The notes beneath the pieces were generated by a model. It did not search any database. It saw nothing but the letters and a program-made list of their open reading frames with translations, and was not told the origin of the DNA. Below, piece by piece: positions 29,346 through 38,971 of a DNA stretch of 58,192 nucleotides. Positions within the stretch are counted from its first letter, which is position 1; each line of letters starts with the position of its first letter. The stretch lies in NCBI GenBank assembly GCA_028817905.1, contig JAPPOR010000171.1:1-58192 (forward strand), written 5' to 3'. Position numbers and translations under genes: made by a program. Origin of the DNA: Myxococcales bacterium (GTDB taxonomy: Bacteria; Myxococcota_A; Polyangia; Polyangiales; JAFGIB01).

Positions 29346-30284
29346 GTGTCAGGCCCCAAGCTTCATCCTCAGGCTCAAGCCGTCCTGGACGCCCACCGTG
29401 CGGCCGGTGAAACACCGCTGACCCTCGACGCCTTCCGTCGCGAAGCGGCCAAGCGCCCCCCGCTGCCCGGTCCCGACCTGCGCTCCGCGGACTACGAGGT
29501 GCACGGTGCTGGTGGGGGGAAGTTTGCGGTCCGGGTCTACTGGCCCGATGGAACCGGCCCCTTCCCCGCCTTGGTCTACCTGCATGGGGGGGGCTTCGTA
29601 GTGGGATCCGTTGAGACCCACGATGGATTCTGTCGCACGCTTGCCGCGGAGCTTGGTTGTGTGGTGGCGTCGATCGGCTATCGGCTGGCTCCGGAGCACA
29701 GGTTTCCCATCCCGGTCGCCGATGCCTATACGGGTCTGTCGTGGGTGCATGAGAGCGCAGACGAGATCAACGTCGATCATACCCGCCTGGCGGTGGGAGG
29801 TGACAGCGCCGGTGCTAACCTAGCGACGGTGACCGCGAGGCAGGCCAAAGAGCGCCGCGGCCCACCGCTTAATTTTCAGGTCTTGTACTACCCAGTGACC
29901 GACTTGCGGGCGCTGGACACTCCTTCCTACCGTGAGTTCGGCAAGCAAGGGTCCTTCTTGACTCGGGCAGAGATGTCGTGGCTACGCGATCAGTACTTGG
30001 CAGATGCAGCGCAGCGCAACGATCCGTCGGTGTCCCCCCTGGTGGCAACGAACCTGATCGGTTTGCCGCCTACCTACCTCGTCACGGCAGAATGCGATCC
30101 GCTGCGAGACGAGGGCGAAGCCTATGCGGCCGCCCTCTCCGCCTCCGGAGTGCAGACGACCGCAGAGCGCTTTGCCGGCCAGCTCCACGGTTTTGTGCGC
30201 ATGTACGATCGGATCGACGCGGGGCGAGCCGTGATCGCGCGCACCGCTGAGCTCATGCGCCCGGCGCTTGGCTTGGGCGCCTGA
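29346..30284 (+). CDS. HSL-family alpha/beta hydrolase (carboxylesterase)
   Basis: This 312-residue hydrolase of the hormone-sensitive-lipase family has the oxyanion motif YLHGGGFVVGS (about residues 78-88) and nucleophile elbow GGDSAGANLA (Ser about 155). Its likely acid is in TAECDPLRDEGEAYA and the catalytic His is in GQLHGFVRM. It should cleave short-chain esters, or possibly amides. The GTG start at 29346 is nine bases after the previous stop; no ATG lies nearby. It has no signal peptide, so it is cytoplasmic. The sulfatase gene follows 18 bases later, and the two may act on related ester substrates. Confidence 0.88.
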   Translation: MSGPKLHPQAQAVLDAHRAAGETPLTLDAFRREAAKRPPLPGPDLRSADYEVHGAGGGKFAVRVYWPDGTGPFPALVYLHGGGFVVGSVETHDGFCRTLAAELGCVVASIGYRLAPEHRFPIPVADAYTGLSWVHESADEINVDHTRLAVGGDSAGANLATVTARQAKERRGPPLNFQVLYYPVTDLRALDTPSYREFGKQGSFLTRAEMSWLRDQYLADAAQRNDPSVSPLVATNLIGLPPTYLVTAECDPLRDEGEAYAAALSASGVQTTAERFAGQLHGFVRMYDRIDAGRAVIARTAELMRPALGLGA

Positions 30285-30302
30285 GAGGGGAACCGTCGGA
30301 AC

Positions 30303-31760
30303 ATGCGCGTCCTATACATCGACATCGATACGCTGCGCCCGGACCATCTGGGATGCTACGGCTACCATCGCAACACCAGCCCGAACATCGACAGGGTTGC
30401 GCGGAATGCGGTGCGATTCACCAACTGCTATGCATCCGATACCCCGTGCCTGCCGAGCAGGATGGCGCTCCTGACGGGTCGCTTCGGAATTCACAACGGC
30501 GTCGTTGGGCACGGTGGCTCCGCGGCCGAGCTCCGGCTGGAAGGGCCGAGCCGGGGATTTTCGTCTCGTGTGGCGCGTGAGAGCCTCTTCGCTCAGGTGA
30601 GGCGCGCGGGGCTTCATACGGTGACCCTGAGTGCGTTTGCCGAGCGGCACAGCGCGTTCGCCTGGTACGCTGGCTTTAACGAGCACGCCATGGTGCCCAA
30701 GCGAGGCCTGGAGGGGGCGGATGAAGTGTGTGCGCTTGCGAGTAACTGGCTCGCCCGTTGCGGAACACGCAGCGATTGGTTTCTACACTTGCATCTGTGG
30801 GACCCCCACACGCCCTATCGCGCGCCTGAGGCGTTTGGGGAGCCGTTCGCGCAAGAGCCCGTGCCCCATTGGTTGACCGAGGAGGTGCGGGCTTCACACT
30901 ATCGTGGCTACGGCCCACACAGCGCGCGGGAGGCGGTGGGTTTCTCGACCGATTACCCCTGGGGGAACTATCCGCGTCAGCCTCGGGAGCTCCCAGATAT
31001 GGACAGTGTGCGGAGCATGTTCGACGGCTACGACACGGGCATCCGGTTCGCGGACGAGCACCTGGGGCGGCTCTTCAACCAGATGGCCGACCAGAATATC
31101 CTCGATGACGCAGTGATCATCATCACGAGTGACCACGGGGAGAACCTGGGTGAGCTCAACGTGTACTGCGACCATCACACTGCCGACCAACACACCGCCA
31201 ACGTGCCGATGATCGTCCGCTTTCCCGGCCACGGCGCGCGGGTGGATTCGGGCTTGTACTATCAGATCGACATCGCCGCGACCTTGCTGCGGTTGCTGGG
31301 AGGCAATGTTCCTGAGGGGTGGGATGCCCGGGAAAGCGCGGGGGCTTTTGCGGCGGGCGCCTCCGCCGGAAGGGATCATCTCGTGCTGTCGCAGGCGGCT
31401 TGGACGTGCCAGCGTGCCGTCCGCTTCGAGGACTATCTGTGGCTTCGAACCTACCATGATGGCTACCATGGCTATCCCGAGTCGATGCTGTTCGATCTAG
31501 TGGTCGACCCCCACGAGCAGCAGAATCTCGCGCCCCAGCAGCCGGACACGGTTCGTCGCGCGCAATCGCTGCTGGACGCGTGGCGCGCCGACATGCTGCC
31601 CGAGGGTAGCGGGCTCGAGGACCCGCTCGACGTGGTGATGCGGGAGGGCGGGCCCTTCCACGTACGCGGGCAGCTGCCCGCGTATTTGGCTCGTCTGCGA
31701 GCGACCGGTCGCGCACAGGCGGCTGAGGCGCTGGCCCGCATCCATCACCAAGGCACGTGA
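30303..31760 (+). CDS. Type I sulfatase
   Basis: This 485-residue enzyme of the alkaline phosphatase superfamily has the metal-binding start LYIDIDTLRPDHLGCYG (Asp7, Asp9) and the formylglycine motif CLPSR (Cys49-Arg53) in DTPCLPSRMALLTGR. That Cys needs oxidation by a sulfatase-maturing enzyme, which is not in the window. IIITSDHGENLGE supplies further metal ligands. It lacks a signal peptide, so it may act in the cytoplasm. The last residues, LARIHHQGT, are encoded by the terminal repeat of the fold-back element; the RadC gene ends with a similar ARIHPQGAR. A good ribosome site (GAGGGG) lies before the ATG. Confidence 0.88.
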   Translation: MRVLYIDIDTLRPDHLGCYGYHRNTSPNIDRVARNAVRFTNCYASDTPCLPSRMALLTGRFGIHNGVVGHGGSAAELRLEGPSRGFSSRVARESLFAQVRRAGLHTVTLSAFAERHSAFAWYAGFNEHAMVPKRGLEGADEVCALASNWLARCGTRSDWFLHLHLWDPHTPYRAPEAFGEPFAQEPVPHWLTEEVRASHYRGYGPHSAREAVGFSTDYPWGNYPRQPRELPDMDSVRSMFDGYDTGIRFADEHLGRLFNQMADQNILDDAVIIITSDHGENLGELNVYCDHHTADQHTANVPMIVRFPGHGARVDSGLYYQIDIAATLLRLLGGNVPEGWDARESAGAFAAGASAGRDHLVLSQAAWTCQRAVRFEDYLWLRTYHDGYHGYPESMLFDLVVDPHEQQNLAPQQPDTVRRAQSLLDAWRADMLPEGSGLEDPLDVVMREGGPFHVRGQLPAYLARLRATGRAQAAEALARIHHQGT

Positions 31761-31870
31761 TGATCGTGCAAGTGATCGATTTCGCAGGGGTTTCGGTGAG
31801 GGAAGGGAATACTCGCCGTATTCTCGACCGAGGCGAAAGCGCGCGCGAGTTGGTGATGGATGCGCGCTAG
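31731..31870 (+). repeat. Fold-back dispersed repeat, copy 2 (complete)
   Basis: The 140-base element is bounded by imperfect 21-base inverted repeats (31,731-31,751 and 31,850-31,870; 19 of 21 match), with CGCATCCATCACCAA / TTGGTGATGGATGCG perfect over 15. Inside lies the core GGGAATACTCGCCGTATT, with AATAC/GTATT able to pair, followed by CTCGACCGAGGCGAAAGC. The left end overlaps the last ten sulfatase codons and the stop. It shares family members with 1-108, 22,703-22,868 and 48,968-49,124. Confidence 0.85.
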
Positions 31871-31895
31871 CCCGCATCCATGCGAGCCACCAAAC
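31866..31895 (-). repeat. Right end of a second fold-back element, minus orientation
   Basis: On the minus strand this reads TTTGGTG, six extra bases (GCTCGC), then ATGGATGCGGGCTAG, that is the family's right terminus with an insertion. It abuts the right end of copy 2 so that the two form a near-palindrome centred on GCTAGC. It lies 27 bases after the DUF849 stop, in sense orientation to that gene. The rest of this second element is missing. Confidence 0.55.
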
Positions 31896-31922
31896 TTGAA
31901 GGCCGAGAGCGGGCGGCTGGCA

Positions 31923-32834
31923 TCACACCTGTACCGCTCGATCGCCCGGTTGCCGCGTCGGAGCCCCGAGCGCGAGAATCTCGCGAGCCTCCGCAGGTGT
32001 CGCCGGCTCGCGACCAGTCTGTATCGCGATCCTGGACAGGGCTTCCACGAGCTGGCCGTTGTCGCGGGCCCGGTCTCCATTGGGAAGGTAGAATGTGTCC
32101 TCCAGGCCCGTGCGTAGATTGCCTCCTCGTTCGGCGGCGGTACGGTGCAGGGCCCAGATGTCTTGGTGCCCAGCTCCAGTGGCGATCACCTGCCAGCGGC
32201 TTTTCGGAGGCAGTTCGTCCAACAGGAACGGCAGCAGGTCCGTTCTTGCTGGCATGCCGGATTCGACTCCCATCACGAAGGACACGTTTGGCGTGCCTTC
32301 GAACATGCCGTTTGCGAGATACATCCCGACGCTTCGCACGATCCCCAGGTCGAAGCACTCAAACTCGGGTGCGACTTCGCACTCCCGCATCACGTCGAGG
32401 AATGCTTTGACCTTGCGGACGGGGTTGTCGAACAACATGGGTGGCCACGCCCATGCGCCGTTCTTGCGGATCTTCAGGTAGTTGAGCGAGCCCGCGTTGC
32501 AGGCGGCAAGCTCGGGGCGGAAGCGGCGCAGGCATTCGACGGGTCCCGAAATGTCTTTGCCGACGATGCCGGTGCTCATGCAGATGAGCATGTCCGGCAC
32601 GCGCTGACGAACCGCCGCCAAGATGGCGCCCACTTCCCCCGGGTCCCACGTGGGAAGGGCCCCCGACCCGGGCTGCTGGGAGCGAAAGTGCGTATGTAGC
32701 ACACTCGCCCCTTGGTCGCGGGCCTGTTGAGCCGCGTCGGCCATCTCCTGTGGCGTTACTGGCACGTTGAACCGCGCCGGGTCGGTGAGCACGCCGGTCA
32801 GGGCGCAGGTGATGACGACCTTGTCGCTGGTCAT
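31923..32834 (-). CDS. Beta-keto acid cleavage enzyme (BKACE, DUF849)
   Basis: This 303-residue TIM-barrel enzyme of the Kce/DUF849 family begins with TSDKVVITCALTGVLTDPARFNVPVTPQEMADAA. The zinc ligands HTHF (His47, His49) lie in GASVLHTHFRS. NAGSLNYLKI and SFVMGVESGMPA are family loops. Members condense a beta-keto acid with acetyl-CoA to give a CoA thioester and acetoacetate; the prototype acts on 3-keto-5-aminohexanoate in lysine fermentation. The substrate here is unknown. It is the third gene of the bicupin-ligase-BKACE operon under the TetR-type regulator. The start ATG at 32834 is fixed by the family N-terminus. Confidence 0.9.
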   Translation of the reverse strand: MTSDKVVITCALTGVLTDPARFNVPVTPQEMADAAQQARDQGASVLHTHFRSQQPGSGALPTWDPGEVGAILAAVRQRVPDMLICMSTGIVGKDISGPVECLRRFRPELAACNAGSLNYLKIRKNGAWAWPPMLFDNPVRKVKAFLDVMRECEVAPEFECFDLGIVRSVGMYLANGMFEGTPNVSFVMGVESGMPARTDLLPFLLDELPPKSRWQVIATGAGHQDIWALHRTAAERGGNLRTGLEDTFYLPNGDRARDNGQLVEALSRIAIQTGREPATPAEAREILALGAPTRQPGDRAVQV

Positions 32835-32878
32835 GGCTTGTCTCCTCGCTGGCCGCTCAGGTTGCTGCGGACCTGCGG

Positions 32879-34408
32879 CTACGTGTGCTCGACATCCTGG
32901 AACCGCCTTCTCAAGAGCGCCTTGAGCACTTTGCCGGTCTCGTTCTTCGGGATCTCGGCTACCGTCTCGACCCGTCGGGGGATCTTGTAGCCCGCGATCT
33001 TGTTGCGGCAGAACTCTCTGAGATCGGCAGTGGATACCCGATTGCCGTCCACGGACACCACGACTGCGGCGACCGCCTCGCCCCATTCGCGATCCGGCAA
33101 ACCGATCACAGCCACCTCGCGAACCGCCGGATGTTCATTCAGCAGCACTTCCACCTCGAGGGGGTATACGTTCTCACCGCCAGTCTTGATCAGGTCCTTC
33201 TTGCGGCCCTCGAAGTACAGGTACCCCTGCTCATCCAGCCGTCCGAGGTCGCCCGTGTGCAGCCATTTCCCTGTATACAGCGCATCGTTGGCCTCGGCGT
33301 TGTTCCAGTAGTGGGCAGTCATCTCCGACCGCACCATGATCTCGCCGACCTCGTCCTGTGAAAGGACCTGCTTGGCGTCGTCCCATATCTGAAGATCAAT
33401 GCCTGGCATGGCTCGACCGCAGGTGAGCGGATTGCTGAACGCGTCCACGTGGTGGACGACGGTCACTGGGCCGGTGCACTCCGTCTGCCCCCAGATTCCC
33501 ATGAAGTCGCATCCGAGGCGGTCGCAGAACCGTTTGAGTCCTGCCATGCTCCTCGGCCCCGTCCCCCCTCCGCTGATGAGGAGGCGTAGGGGCGTGAAGT
33601 CGGCGCCCTTGTCCATCGCTTTGCCAAGGGCTCGGACCTGCTTCGCGGAGACCAACATCGTCACGGTGACGCGTTCGCGGACCATCAGGTCCGCGACGGC
33701 GTCCATGTCGAGCTCTCCAGGAACCACATTGGTTCCACCCCGAAGCATGATCGCGCGCGAGCGGATCATCCCTGCCTGATGAAAGTAGGGCATGATCGCC
33801 ATGTAGACGTCGTTCTCGGTAGCTCTCAGAGCCCCGGCGGTCAGGCGATCGATGGTGGTCGAGCCCCGTTGGGTCTGCAGGCATCCCTTCGGCGTGCCAG
33901 TCGTGCCGCTGGTGTAAATCAGCATTACGGGGTCTTCGGGCGCGATGTCAGAGCGAATGCGAGGGTTGCGACCACCAGCCACAAGCGTCGCGGTGCTGTG
34001 GTCTGCGCAAGGCACGTCGCCCATGCCGATTACGGAGCGCAGGCTGGGGCATCCAGCGCGCAGTTCGGCTGCCGCGTAGGCATGGGTCTCGTCTACGATA
34101 AGCGCACTGCTGCCAGCGTCATTCATGGCCCAGAGCCACTCTCGCAAGACGTGCCGAGTATTCATCACGTGCAGGATGACTCCCGTCATTGAAGTTGCGA
34201 GGTGATACGTGAGGTAGTCAATGCGGTTGTTCGCGATCAGTGAGATTCGGTCACCCTTCCTCAGACCGAGCGACTCGAGTGCGCCCGCAAGGTGACCGAC
34301 GCGGGTGGCGAGGTCGTTGAACGAGAGCGCCTGCTGTCCATCGCGCACGGCGATTCGTTCTGCGAACAGGCTTGCTGTCTCGAAGAAGCTGTCGTGCAAC
34401 GTCGACAT
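32879..34408 (-). CDS. AMP-dependent CoA ligase of the BKACE operon
   Basis: This 509-residue ANL-family ligase carries PVMLIYTSGTTGTPKGCLQTQRG (about residues 162-184), GIWGQTECTGPV, TGDLGRLDEQGYLYFEGRKKDLIKTGGENVYPLEVE, and the catalytic Lys in NETGKVLKALLRR. It activates a carboxylate to its CoA ester at the cost of ATP. The ATG at 34408 has GGGAGG seven bases before it, better than the in-frame ATG at 34426, which would overlap the bicupin gene. It lies 14 bases after the bicupin gene and 44 before the DUF849 gene. Sequence alone does not tell whether the substrate is aromatic or aliphatic. Confidence 0.9.
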   Translation of the reverse strand: MSTLHDSFFETASLFAERIAVRDGQQALSFNDLATRVGHLAGALESLGLRKGDRISLIANNRIDYLTYHLATSMTGVILHVMNTRHVLREWLWAMNDAGSSALIVDETHAYAAAELRAGCPSLRSVIGMGDVPCADHSTATLVAGGRNPRIRSDIAPEDPVMLIYTSGTTGTPKGCLQTQRGSTTIDRLTAGALRATENDVYMAIMPYFHQAGMIRSRAIMLRGGTNVVPGELDMDAVADLMVRERVTVTMLVSAKQVRALGKAMDKGADFTPLRLLISGGGTGPRSMAGLKRFCDRLGCDFMGIWGQTECTGPVTVVHHVDAFSNPLTCGRAMPGIDLQIWDDAKQVLSQDEVGEIMVRSEMTAHYWNNAEANDALYTGKWLHTGDLGRLDEQGYLYFEGRKKDLIKTGGENVYPLEVEVLLNEHPAVREVAVIGLPDREWGEAVAAVVVSVDGNRVSTADLREFCRNKIAGYKIPRRVETVAEIPKNETGKVLKALLRRRFQDVEHT

Positions 34409-34422
34409 ACTCGTCCTCCCGT

Positions 34423-35133
34423 TCACGCAAGCGCGTTCTGCGACTCGCCCAGGGGCGGGGCATAGACTACCAGCAGCTTCAGGGCCTCCTTGAGCCCACC
34501 TCCCGTGCCGTGCGGGGCACGTCGCGGATAGTGGATGAGCAGCGGTTCGCGGGCCTCCAGTAGGTACAGGACCTGCTCGTTGTGCTCGTGGTAGTGCCGC
34601 TCCGCCCCACCACCGGCGTCAATGAACCCCTCGATGACCTCCAGCTCGTCATCGATATACAGGCAACGGTTGGTCGTCTTGGCGTGACCTGCAGGCTCGT
34701 AGGGCGGAACCTCCTCGGGGCGCACGCGTCGGAGTGGTGCGGGTTGGCGCTCATGCGTGGGGTGGGCTTGGCGGCCATCTGTACGCCGGGAGCCGGCCGC
34801 GATCTCGAGCAGCACGAGCTCTTCGGAGAGCACGGAGACCTGCGGTCCCCATGGGGTACCCGCCGGGACGACCAAGAGGTCGCCCGCGGACAGGGGGAGT
34901 TCCTCGCCCCGCTGCCGCAGCAGGCCCCGCCCCCGCAGAACGTACGCGAGGCGCACGCTCGGGGAAGGTTCGCGTTCATCGAGGTTTGCAGTCCGACCGA
35001 TCCTGGTTTGTCCGACTTCGAGCGCTTCGCTCCTCAGCAGCCGCTTGAAGTCCACGCCGGAGCGCGAGGACAGGGGCTGGTATTCGACCGAGTCGACAGC
35101 GATGTACTTGGCTTTTGGCTCCTTCTCACCCAC
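34423..35133 (-). CDS. Two-domain cupin protein
   Basis: This 236-residue protein carries two cupin-like halves. The first (about residues 55-115) has VRLAYVLRGRGLLRQRGEELPLSAGDLLVVPAGTPWGPQV. The second (about 155-230) has YIDDELEVIEGFIDAGGGAERHYHEHNEQVLYLLEARE, with possible metal ligands His-x-His and Glu in HYHEHNEQ. The first half lacks the usual His pair, so only the second is likely to bind metal. It could be a dioxygenase, an isomerase or a sensor of the pathway. The GTG at 35133 has GGAGG six bases upstream; another GTG 12 bases earlier is less well placed. It is the first gene of the operon and divergent from tetR. Confidence 0.78.
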   Translation of the reverse strand: MGEKEPKAKYIAVDSVEYQPLSSRSGVDFKRLLRSEALEVGQTRIGRTANLDEREPSPSVRLAYVLRGRGLLRQRGEELPLSAGDLLVVPAGTPWGPQVSVLSEELVLLEIAAGSRRTDGRQAHPTHERQPAPLRRVRPEEVPPYEPAGHAKTTNRCLYIDDELEVIEGFIDAGGGAERHYHEHNEQVLYLLEAREPLLIHYPRRAPHGTGGGLKEALKLLVVYAPPLGESQNALA

Positions 35134-35187
35134 TGCAACCTCCACAGAAGCGCCTCGTTCTTTGTGTACGGTCCCAACCGGTACCCA

Positions 35188-35218
35188 AGGCTATAGCCTC
35201 GTGTTGGACGGCATTCAA
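35188..35218 (-). promoter_or_regulatory. Predicted promoter of the bicupin operon with overlapping palindrome
   Basis: On the minus strand TTGAAT (35213-35218) and TATAGC (35190-35195) are 17 bases apart, each 4 of 6 to consensus. The -10 lies inside AGGCTATAGCCT (35188-35199), a perfect 12-base palindrome. This is where a TetR dimer would block polymerase, and the tetR-like gene starts about 90 bases away on the other strand. Confidence 0.45.
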
Positions 35219-35290
35219 GAGGAACCAGTGACGTGAACGCGGACGTGCCTTCGTGCAGTCCGCCATGCTATCCCATGATTTGGAGGGTCT

Positions 35291-35857
35291 GTGGCTCGGA
35301 CGAACCGGGAGCTGGATCGTGATCAGAAACGTGAGGAGATTCTGCGCGCTGCCCGAGAGTTGTTCCTCGAGCACGGCTACGAGGGGACCTCGATGCAGCG
35401 TTTGGCCGCAAGGGTCAAGGTCGCGCCCAATACGCTGTATTGGTACTTCGCCGACAAGGACGCGTTGCTCATCGGCGTGATGAAGCGCGTGGTGCAGGCC
35501 GGACTCGGGGAGTACGAGCGGCGTCGCGGGACCGCCCTGGATGCTCAGGTGCGCTGGATGCTGGGGCTGTTTTGGGAGACGCGTACGCTGATTGCTACGG
35601 TCCACAACCGCGCGCAGGTCTCATCTGAAGTGCGTGCCTGGCATGACACAGCCCACCGCATGATCGAGAAGGCCATCGAGGCCGAGCTGCGATCGCGTGG
35701 TCTAGCCAACGGTCACGAGGTGGCGGCCGCCCGCATCATGTCGTTTATCGCGGAAGGCGTCGTCGCTCACCAGTCGTCGAAAGCGGAACAGACCCGTATC
35801 GTCAGGTTGCTGATGCACCTGCTCCGTCTCGACGTGGACGATGGTGCGCTACGGTAG
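35291..35857 (+). CDS. TetR/AcrR-family transcriptional regulator
   Basis: This 188-residue regulator has the N-terminal TetR helix-turn-helix, REEILRAARELFLEHGYEGTSMQRLAARVKVAPNTLYWYFADKDALL (about residues 14-59). A helical ligand-binding domain follows and has no named subfamily. The GTG start at 35291 has GGAGGG six bases upstream. It is divergent from the bicupin-ligase-BKACE operon and most likely represses it until an acyl-CoA or acid ligand binds. Its 3' end overlaps that of the convergent golvesin/PQQ gene by nine bases. Confidence 0.9.
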   Translation: MARTNRELDRDQKREEILRAARELFLEHGYEGTSMQRLAARVKVAPNTLYWYFADKDALLIGVMKRVVQAGLGEYERRRGTALDAQVRWMLGLFWETRTLIATVHNRAQVSSEVRAWHDTAHRMIEKAIEAELRSRGLANGHEVAAARIMSFIAEGVVAHQSSKAEQTRIVRLLMHLLRLDVDDGALR

Positions 35858-38800
35858 ACCGTAGATGGTGATCCCGCCCTCGGAAGCGTCGCCCGGTCCG
35901 TCTTTGACGAACTGGAATTGGAATCCCTCGGTTACGATTAGGTAGCCGTCGATCACCGTCGGTGCGCTGCCGATGCGATAGGCGTCTGTGCCACTGTTGC
36001 CGGTGTTCCACAACTCTGTGCCATCGACGGCGTCAAAGGCGTAGACGCGTCCGACGCTAGTACCGGTGTAGACCACACCGCCGGCGTAGGTGACCGCGCC
36101 GACGCACGCGCTCGCGCGCGAGCGGGACCAAAGAAGATCGCCGGTAACCGCATCGCGGGCCTGCAAGTGGCAGGTATTGCTGGTTGAGTTCCAGTCCTGC
36201 CCAATCAGGGCGAAGAATGACCAGTCGTTGCCGGTGATGTAAAGGACTCCGTCGTGGTAAGCCGCCGTGGCCATCACGCCTCCGAGTGCCGAACCGCTCG
36301 AGATCGTCGCTTCCCACATTTGGGTTCCCGTCTCGCGGTCGAAAGCGCGGTAGATGCCCTCCTTGCTGCCTACGCCGACGAAGTCCTGGCAACCACGGGT
36401 ATACAAGTTCGGAGAGGCTCCGATGTCCCAATCAGGCTCTGACGACGCGTCCAAGCTGAAGGTGTCTCCCGCTTCGTACTGATCCGACCACAGGAGGTCG
36501 CCGTTGCTGTAGTCGAGCGCGAGCAGCGCATCGCTATGCGGCCCCGCGGGCGCGGCGTACGCGTTGCCCGTGCCAACGTACATCACGCCGCGGGCTTCAT
36601 CGATGGCGGGCGTGGACCAGATGCTGACGCCCGCGCCGTACTGCATTTCCTGCACCAGTGTCCGCCACAGCTCACCACCTGTGTTCCTGTCGAGCGCGAT
36701 GATCTCGCCGCGGAATGTCCGATCCGCGGCGTCCGGTGTGTCACCCGTTGCGACGAGCAAGCGGTTTCCAACCACGCGTGGCGAGGACCAGAGGAAGGCG
36801 CCGCCGTCAAAGGCGGGATTGACCACGTCGGTCGCCCACAGCGGGTCACCCGTATCGAGGGTCCATGCTGAGACCATCCCTCCGTGGTCCGTCACATAGA
36901 TGGTGTTGCCATCTACAGCGGGCGTCGAGGTCGCGCGGTCGGCGGTTCCGATCTGGCGCTGCCACACCATCGCGCCGTCGCTCAGTCGCTGCGCGCGTAG
37001 CATGGAGTTCCAGTCGATCCAGTACACAATGTCGCCGATCACGATAGGGTTGCTGACGGCGCTGACATCCTGGAAGGTCCACTTCGCCTCGAGTCCCGAT
37101 ACGGTTGCGGGGACCAGGGTCGTTTCGTCTGGATTGGCGAAGGTGTTGCTGAACCCCCGCCCGTAGGTTGGCCAGTCTGCGGACTCGCTTACCTCCGGCG
37201 CATCGATGCAGCACTGCGCGGCGTCGGGCACCGATCCGAGTGCACCGACACGCACGAAGCGCACGGCGTCAGCGATCGTGTACCCATCACCCGCCCCCCG
37301 GATCTCGACGTAGCCGTCCGTGCCTACTTCCAGGTCATAGGTCCCTAGCAAGTTCCACTGGCCGCCGTTCACCTGCTGATTCACGGAGGTGTTGTCCACG
37401 CAGCCGCCGGCAAACATCACCTTGACAGGTGCCGCCGAGGGACGGTTGCTGCTAGCTGCCCACCACATGGACACCTCATAGGCTCCGCTCTGCGGGATGT
37501 TCGGTGTGAACCGGGCTGCCTTCGACGAATCGCCGTTGCCACCGTGGGCGTAGTTGTTGTGAAAGTAACCGCTCGCCCAGGTCGAATTGGTCCAGCTTCC
37601 AGTGGTCGTGAAGCAGCAGTCGTAGGCGCTGCCACCATCGTTGTCGATGATGATTTCCGTCGCCGTCACGCAAAGCTCGTCCACGGCGTCATCGCAATCA
37701 TCATCCATGCCGTCACAGGTGCTGTCGTCCCCGTTCGGAGCGCCCGGCGTGCAGGTGTCCCCTTCGCTCCCATTTAGGCACACCGTCGAGCCACTACTGG
37801 AGCACACTCCGGTGCCACAGCTGGTTGGCGCGGCGCTATAGGCCTCATCAGTTGACCCGTCATTGTCGTCGTCAACACCGTCGCAGTTGTCGTCGGGGGG
37901 AAGTGGGACGCAGGCTTCATCGACGTTTCCATCGCAGTCGTCGTCGACGCTGTCGCAGCTGCTATCGTCGCCTATCGCGGGCCCGGGCGTGCAACTATCC
38001 TGTTCGCTTGCGTCTACGCACTGGGTTGATCCGGTGCTGGCGCACACGCCGACACCGCAGCTGGTAGACTGACCGCTGTAAGCCTCGTCGAACGCACCAT
38101 CGTTGTCATCGTCCACGCCGTCGCAGTTGTCGTCGGGCGGCGTGGGCGGCGGGCAGGTCGTAGACCAGCTTGCGCCGCTATCGGTGGAGCACAGGGTAAC
38201 GACGGCCGACCCACTGGTGCCGAGCGACTCATCCGAACCTACCGCATAGTAGTTGGTCCACCACAAGACGCTCTGTCCGTAGGCACGCCCCGCACCGACG
38301 TGCGCGCTGACCGAGGACGTCTCGCTCTGTACTGGGCAGGCAGCACCCTCATCTACCTGGCCGTCAAGATCGTTGTCGATGCCGTCGCACAGTTCAGGCT
38401 CAGACTGGGGGCAGCCATGGTTGCCGGCATCCGCCTCCCGCACGAAACGGACCGCATCCGCAACCGTGTAGCCGCTATCTGCGGCCGTGATGGTAACTTC
38501 GCTCGGGTTGTCAAACAGGACAGCGGGCCCGCCGAGGCGCACCCACTGTTCGCCGGAGCTGCGCTGGTCGACGGCTATCGTAGAGCTACAGCCACTGTCG
38601 AAGGTCACGGAGACAGGGGCCGCATCAGCACGATTGCTTGAGCCGGCGGGCCACCACATGAACACAGCATAGGCGCCACCGTCCAGCGCCGAAGGGGCCC
38701 AGGACACGAAGCGGCCTGGCGCCGCCGAGGTCCCGCTGTACCTGTAGGAGCCCTGCTGTGCCCCGGCCAAGCTGCGCGTCGTCCATCCACTGCTTGCCGT

Positions 38801-38971
38801 CGCGCCCCCATCCTCATCGTCGATGATCTGCTCGGTCAAGGCGCCACGCACGACGGAGACCTCGGTTGGGGCCTCGTGCCGTTGCGATTCGCAAGCGCCT
38901 ACCAGGAGCGTCATTGCGATCGCCCAAGCTGGCGGAACCCTTTTCTCGGAAAGACCAACGATTGCGTGCAT
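35849..38971 (-). CDS. Lipoprotein with golvesin-like, MopE-like and PQQ beta-propeller domains
   Basis: This 1040-residue protein has a lipoprotein signal with lipobox VGAC (Cys27). Domain 1 (about 48-178) and domain 3 (about 440-574) are golvesin/xanthan-lyase-like beta-sandwiches, both ending GYT-V/I-ADAVRFVR. Between them (about 194-436) lie five or more MopE-like metal-binding repeats, such as CDGIDNDLDGQVDEG and NCDGVDDDNDGAFDE, with paired Cys. From about 598 to the end there is a PQQ-type beta-propeller with repeated GxxLW and GTELW turns. It should sit on the outer surface, binding Ca2+ or Cu, and may oxidise an alcohol or sugar or only scaffold. PQQ-coordinating residues cannot be confirmed by eye. 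It is a single gene. Confidence 0.8.
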   Translation of the reverse strand: MHAIVGLSEKRVPPAWAIAMTLLVGACESQRHEAPTEVSVVRGALTEQIIDDEDGGATASSGWTTRSLAGAQQGSYRYSGTSAAPGRFVSWAPSALDGGAYAVFMWWPAGSSNRADAAPVSVTFDSGCSSTIAVDQRSSGEQWVRLGGPAVLFDNPSEVTITAADSGYTVADAVRFVREADAGNHGCPQSEPELCDGIDNDLDGQVDEGAACPVQSETSSVSAHVGAGRAYGQSVLWWTNYYAVGSDESLGTSGSAVVTLCSTDSGASWSTTCPPPTPPDDNCDGVDDDNDGAFDEAYSGQSTSCGVGVCASTGSTQCVDASEQDSCTPGPAIGDDSSCDSVDDDCDGNVDEACVPLPPDDNCDGVDDDNDGSTDEAYSAAPTSCGTGVCSSSGSTVCLNGSEGDTCTPGAPNGDDSTCDGMDDDCDDAVDELCVTATEIIIDNDGGSAYDCCFTTTGSWTNSTWASGYFHNNYAHGGNGDSSKAARFTPNIPQSGAYEVSMWWAASSNRPSAAPVKVMFAGGCVDNTSVNQQVNGGQWNLLGTYDLEVGTDGYVEIRGAGDGYTIADAVRFVRVGALGSVPDAAQCCIDAPEVSESADWPTYGRGFSNTFANPDETTLVPATVSGLEAKWTFQDVSAVSNPIVIGDIVYWIDWNSMLRAQRLSDGAMVWQRQIGTADRATSTPAVDGNTIYVTDHGGMVSAWTLDTGDPLWATDVVNPAFDGGAFLWSSPRVVGNRLLVATGDTPDAADRTFRGEIIALDRNTGGELWRTLVQEMQYGAGVSIWSTPAIDEARGVMYVGTGNAYAAPAGPHSDALLALDYSNGDLLWSDQYEAGDTFSLDASSEPDWDIGASPNLYTRGCQDFVGVGSKEGIYRAFDRETGTQMWEATISSGSALGGVMATAAYHDGVLYITGNDWSFFALIGQDWNSTSNTCHLQARDAVTGDLLWSRSRASACVGAVTYAGGVVYTGTSVGRVYAFDAVDGTELWNTGNSGTDAYRIGSAPTVIDGYLIVTEGFQFQFVKDGPGDASEGGITIYGLP

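Follow-up and report, generated by a model that had tools for sequence, protein, structure and literature searches.

The window analysed here is a stretch of 58,192 nucleotides, taken at its full length. An open reading frame (ORF) listing and profile matches place within it a minus-strand operon encoding a two-domain cupin, an acyl-CoA ligase and a beta-keto acid cleavage enzyme (BKACE), with a TetR-family gene divergent from it. The interval 34423-35218 holds the cupin gene and its promoter only, the ligase and BKACE genes lying outside it. The features are:

34423-35133, minus strand: two-domain cupin, 236 aa (PF07883, 43.2 bits; start GTG 35133)
32879-34408, minus strand: acyl-CoA ligase, ANL superfamily (PF00501/PF13193; start ATG 34408)
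31923-32834, minus strand: BKACE, 303 aa (PF05853, E 5.8e-80; start ATG 32834)
35291-35857, plus strand: divergent TetR-family regulator, 188 aa (PF00440, 64.2 bits)
35188-35199: perfect 12-bp palindrome AGGCTATAGCCT, candidate operator (exact, single occurrence in the window)
35188-35216, minus strand: weak promoter-like TTGAAT-17 nt-TATAGC (hand-read; overlaps the palindrome)

Operon layout and candidate operator

The gene identities of the original prediction were confirmed by the profile scores (BKACE 269 bits to PF05853, curated cut-off 24.8; AMP-binding 217.5; Cupin_2 43.2; TetR_N 64.2), and so was the layout with its divergent TetR gene, as ORFs, families and strands all agree. Gene starts were reassigned from ribosome-binding sites read directly. 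The cupin start at GTG 35133 has a GGAGG 5 nt upstream, and the GTG 35145 of the listed ORF (240 aa) precedes this GGAGG; the ligase ORF is listed from GTG 34426, and its ribosome-binding site favours ATG 34408. Such sites lie ahead of all three genes, which are separated by gaps of 14 nt (cupin-ligase) and 44 nt (ligase-BKACE), and no dehydrogenase, hydratase, transporter or carboxylase gene was found within the operon. Recent foreign DNA was considered and rejected, the operon having a GC content of 0.640 against 0.637 for the window and a GC3 resembling that of its neighbours.

Convergent with the operon, at 29346-31760 on the plus strand, lies a hormone-sensitive-lipase-type esterase gene (336.6 bits; LipP1 cut-off 350) beside a sulfatase gene. 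On the other side, at 35849-38971 on the minus strand, a 1040-aa protein with repeated DDNCDGVDDD-type Cys/Asp motifs is encoded, whose C-terminal half gives, from its sequence, the impression of a beta-propeller.

A palindrome had been placed on the -10 element of the operon, and indeed AGGCTATAGCCT is present exactly and overlaps the TATAGC of the hand-read promoter, a weak one that agrees with the consensus at 4/6 and 4/6 positions and that is missed, TTGAAT-17-TATAGC included, by a consensus promoter scan of 31700-36000 (0 sites). Allowing up to two mismatches, 0.86 matches to AGGCTATAGCCT are expected per window. When the 145-bp cupin-TetR intergenic stretch was shuffled 5000 times, 168 of the shuffled versions contained a perfect 12-bp palindrome, and 25 such palindromes are present across the window, so that AGGCTATAGCCT is only mildly unusual. 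The TetR protein reaches no NCBIfam equivalog cut-off; we infer that it binds the candidate operator and thereby regulates the operon.

BKACE residues and relationships

The window BKACE, present as a single copy in a search of the source genome, stays below the NCBIfam equivalog cut-offs for Kce (181.8 bits against 382), 3-oxoadipate (163.8 against 350) and 3,5-dioxohexanoate (155.5 against 430) cleavage enzymes. Residues H47, H49, E245, E159 and R241 are invariant in all 86 aligned rows, and H47, H49 and E245 are presumably the Zn ligands. In the alignment, Leu16 sits at the position of a Kce Glu, which we take to bind the amino group of the Kce substrate; the replacement therefore favours an uncharged side chain, and the substrate is probably a beta-keto acid that is uncharged, likely hydrophobic, and probably not ammonium-bearing. 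Kce, the 3-keto-5-aminohexanoate cleavage enzyme (2Y7D-2Y7G), is otherwise of the same fold family and has the Zn histidines, the Arg and the Glu in common with the window protein. The catalytic residues of BKACE15 from Paracoccus denitrificans (8RIO, 8RIP, 9HNF), given as Glu171 and Arg254 in an excerpt of PMC11961710, align with E159 and R241 (positions counted by hand); the two proteins are distant in sequence, however, and the window subgroup has a W128/W130 segment of its own, invariant in 75 of 75 close rows. Family profile and conserved catalytic residues make acetyl-CoA-dependent cleavage of a beta-keto acid the best reading of this enzyme. Acyl-CoA and acetoacetate are the expected products, not the simple condensation product of the original prediction.

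In a quick tree, which omits 15 rows whose aligned stretch contains in-frame stops, the window BKACE groups with the Desulfobacterales loci L059 and L060 (support 96) in a seven-row clade (support 99); because of this grouping, an old horizontal transfer of the BKACE gene is possible.

Ligase and cupin

The ligase carries the AMP-binding and C-terminal domains (PF00501 and PF13193) with the motifs YTSGTTGTPKG and TGK, presumably functional motifs of ANL acyl-CoA ligases. Its top NCBIfam model is a fatty-acid-type ligase (427 bits against a cut-off of 476), and no cut-off is reached among the 25 models listed.

The cupin matches no NCBIfam model. Its domain 2 has an intact HxH..E..H, a 3-His/1-Glu metal site, and its domain 1 lacks HxH and metal ligands. 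An AlphaFold2 model of the cupin alone was set aside (mean pLDDT 32). No homologue was found in the plasmids or viral contigs searched; a scan of genome contigs with short exact peptides returned none either and must be insensitive, as it also missed the homologue described below. Within the source phylum only weak matches appeared besides the source genome, in 15 of 282 genomes, with up to nine candidates scored per genome.

Besides the genome G428, treated below, 8 of 297 sampled genomes yielded single-domain relatives of domain 2. These proteins of 115-126 aa form a family in Thermodesulfobacteriota (L154-L161), part of which neighbour TRAP or TAXI-type transporters, ligases, an HMG-CoA-lyase-like gene or HpcH/HpaI-like genes (these last judged by eye); in L159 a TRAP transporter, such a cupin, a ligase and an acyl-CoA dehydrogenase form a run. 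Thermodesulfobacteriota are mostly anaerobic. Because domain 1 is devoid of metal ligands and domain 2 found its nearest relatives in this phylum, an O2-dependent reaction is less likely, which weakens an oxygen-dependent form of the ring cleavage that had been proposed. The cupin is probably an oxygen-independent metal enzyme or an accessory protein, and it could instead be a ligand-binding protein; its role in the operon is a guess.

Gene neighbourhoods in relatives

At least 546 BKACE relatives were confirmed in one scan, and the best 80 of these made up the neighbourhood set. Neighbours were counted by tblastn (E up to 1e-8) with seeds from the window, L125, L157, L143 and others; a clustering of neighbours by longest ORF was set aside as wrong-strand ORFs were mixed in. 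The expectation that the trio would recur in relatives was not borne out: none of the 80 loci has it, the cupin being found within 10 kb of BKACE in none of them, and in one of 70 genomes a cupin-ligase pair is accompanied by a BKACE gene about 12 kb away. Nine relatives from the same order, with BKACE identities of 53-60%, likewise showed no cupin or ligase nearby (two of the contigs are shorter than 9 kb). At the strict limit, a ligase homologue was detected in no other genome among 183 of the order (8 candidates per genome), nor among 249 of another phylum (6 candidates per genome, a search run without positive control).

What does surround BKACE is acyl-CoA carboxylase genes. Of the 60 loci that span 12 kb or more, 49 have a biotin carboxylase gene, 45 a carboxyltransferase, 39 an enoyl-CoA hydratase, 38 an acyl-CoA dehydrogenase and 16 an acyl-CoA ligase, suggesting that the subgroup of the window BKACE usually serves acyl-CoA-carboxylase clusters. 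In L125 (9998-10001) and L130 (9995-9998), the last 4 nt of the biotin-carboxylase ORF are shared with the BKACE ORF, which suggests that translation of BKACE is coupled to that of the carboxylase. We also considered that BKACE replaces HMG-CoA lyase in such clusters. No HMG-CoA-lyase gene was found near BKACE in the 80 loci with the one seed used, from L157; as a general rule the idea was rejected, since 41 of 50 genomes searched, the source genome included, keep a true HMG-CoA lyase above cut-off.

The cupin was searched genome-wide in 70 BKACE-bearing genomes (20 + 50), which left L093, L101, L105, L113, L117, L123, L129, L131, L132 and L138 of the 80 loci outside. One clear homologue emerged, besides two weak matches (E 7.6e-4 and 2.1e-4). 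It lies in G428, a metagenome-assembled genome labelled Thermodesulfobacteriota and drawn in the phylum sample of a Desulfobacterales genome. Cupin (47%) and ligase (59%) are adjacent there, in the order of the window and with a 27-nt gap, directly downstream of a chloride-channel gene and with no adjoining TetR gene. The metal site of domain 2 is kept, a shortened hairpin links the metal motifs in each of the two bicupins, and the YTSGTTGTPKG and TGK residues of the ligase are identical. The BKACE (61%) is encoded about 12 kb from this pair, on one contig and strand with it, in a cluster with two carboxyltransferases, a hydratase, a biotinyl protein, dehydrogenases and biotin carboxylase.

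The exact trio is thus rare: it occurs in no other genome searched, and a single distant bacterium has a partial equivalent. That G428 keeps the two modules apart suggests that they were joined in the window, whose operon, with this one genome as counterpart, appears to combine a cupin-ligase module with a BKACE of the carboxylase-cluster subgroup.

Proposed pathway and alternatives

We propose, with about even confidence, a TetR-regulated catabolic operon for a carboxylic acid in which ligase and cupin act early and BKACE late. The ligase would convert the acid to its CoA ester, the cupin acting alongside this step as a metal enzyme through domain 2 or as an accessory protein, its domain 1 being a non-metal domain. 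Acyl-CoA enzymes encoded elsewhere would then process this ester to a free beta-keto acid whose side chain is uncharged and probably hydrophobic; from that acid and acetyl-CoA, BKACE would form a shortened acyl-CoA and acetoacetate. This route to the beta-keto acid is assumed, because the operon has no dehydrogenase, hydratase or transporter; it could arise in trans, as carboxyltransferases and HMG-CoA lyase are encoded on other contigs of the source genome. The pairing in G428 and the company of BKACE with carboxylase genes make cupin and ligase look like an entry module, with BKACE acting separately at a late stage; together with the enzymes available in trans, this leads us to prefer the ligase-first order. 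Step order, substrate class and cupin chemistry are what we infer here.

The order originally predicted, with the cupin as a dioxygenase or isomerase making a keto acid that BKACE cleaves, and the ligase then activating the acid product, agrees with the cupin-ligase-BKACE gene order in one operon and with the HxH..E..H site of domain 2. It now seems unlikely, because G428 pairs cupin with ligase and has BKACE among acyl-CoA carboxylase genes, and the relatives of domain 2 belong to mostly anaerobic bacteria; moreover, BKACE itself releases a CoA ester, so that its product requires no ligase. A ligase that reactivates BKACE-derived acetoacetate to acetoacetyl-CoA, with the cupin as sensor or accessory, would be useful in that acetoacetate inhibits BKACE15 (PMC11961710, excerpt), so its removal would help, and acetoacetate activation is needed in the deoxyribonate pathway according to part of PMC6365646. 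We give this little credence, given that the fatty-acid type is the best model for the ligase, with none of the listed models reached, and that the ligases adjoining BKACE that were scanned in relatives are also of this type. Equally improbable, in our judgement, is that the cupin-ligase module and BKACE are chance neighbours with no shared pathway: the trio is absent from 80 of 80 BKACE loci and each part occurs without the others, but the gaps are operon-like and in G428, where alone the cupin was found again, BKACE lies on the same contig and strand.

The preferred ligase-first reading can be taken further, in a form that we regard as doubtful: the W128/W130 subgroup would serve carboxylase pathways, using a beta-keto acid freed from a branched acyl-CoA by an HMG-CoA-lyase-like step, and the oxygen-independent bicupin would ready the acid for the ligase, in a hitherto undescribed route for acids of branched or terpenoid-like type.

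Comparison with known systems

The L125 BKACE cluster is, we assume, comparable to acyl-CoA carboxylase clusters of the leucine or acyclic-terpene type. The window subgroup usually sits among such genes, whereas the window operon itself has no carboxylase, dehydrogenase or hydratase. No description of the cupin-ligase-BKACE trio was found in the open-licence literature, judged from listings, a scope that does not include Bastard et al. 2014, reportedly the main BKACE survey; within that scope, the statement that no three-gene pathway of this kind has been characterised stands. The deoxyribonate cluster of Pseudomonas simiae likewise places BKACE in a catabolic operon, where the enzyme is proposed to give acyl-CoA and acetoacetate, but it has an SDR dehydrogenase, a lactonase and MFS transporters, and no cupin or ligase is named in the portion of PMC6365646 consulted.

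The component enzymes are familiar, and their combination is new in the genomes searched. If our reading is right, it would provide a cellular context for a large BKACE subgroup (at least 546 relatives) for which no assigned role was found in the literature, and would link a cupin outside the NCBIfam models to a function for the first time, by way of acyl-CoA ligases.
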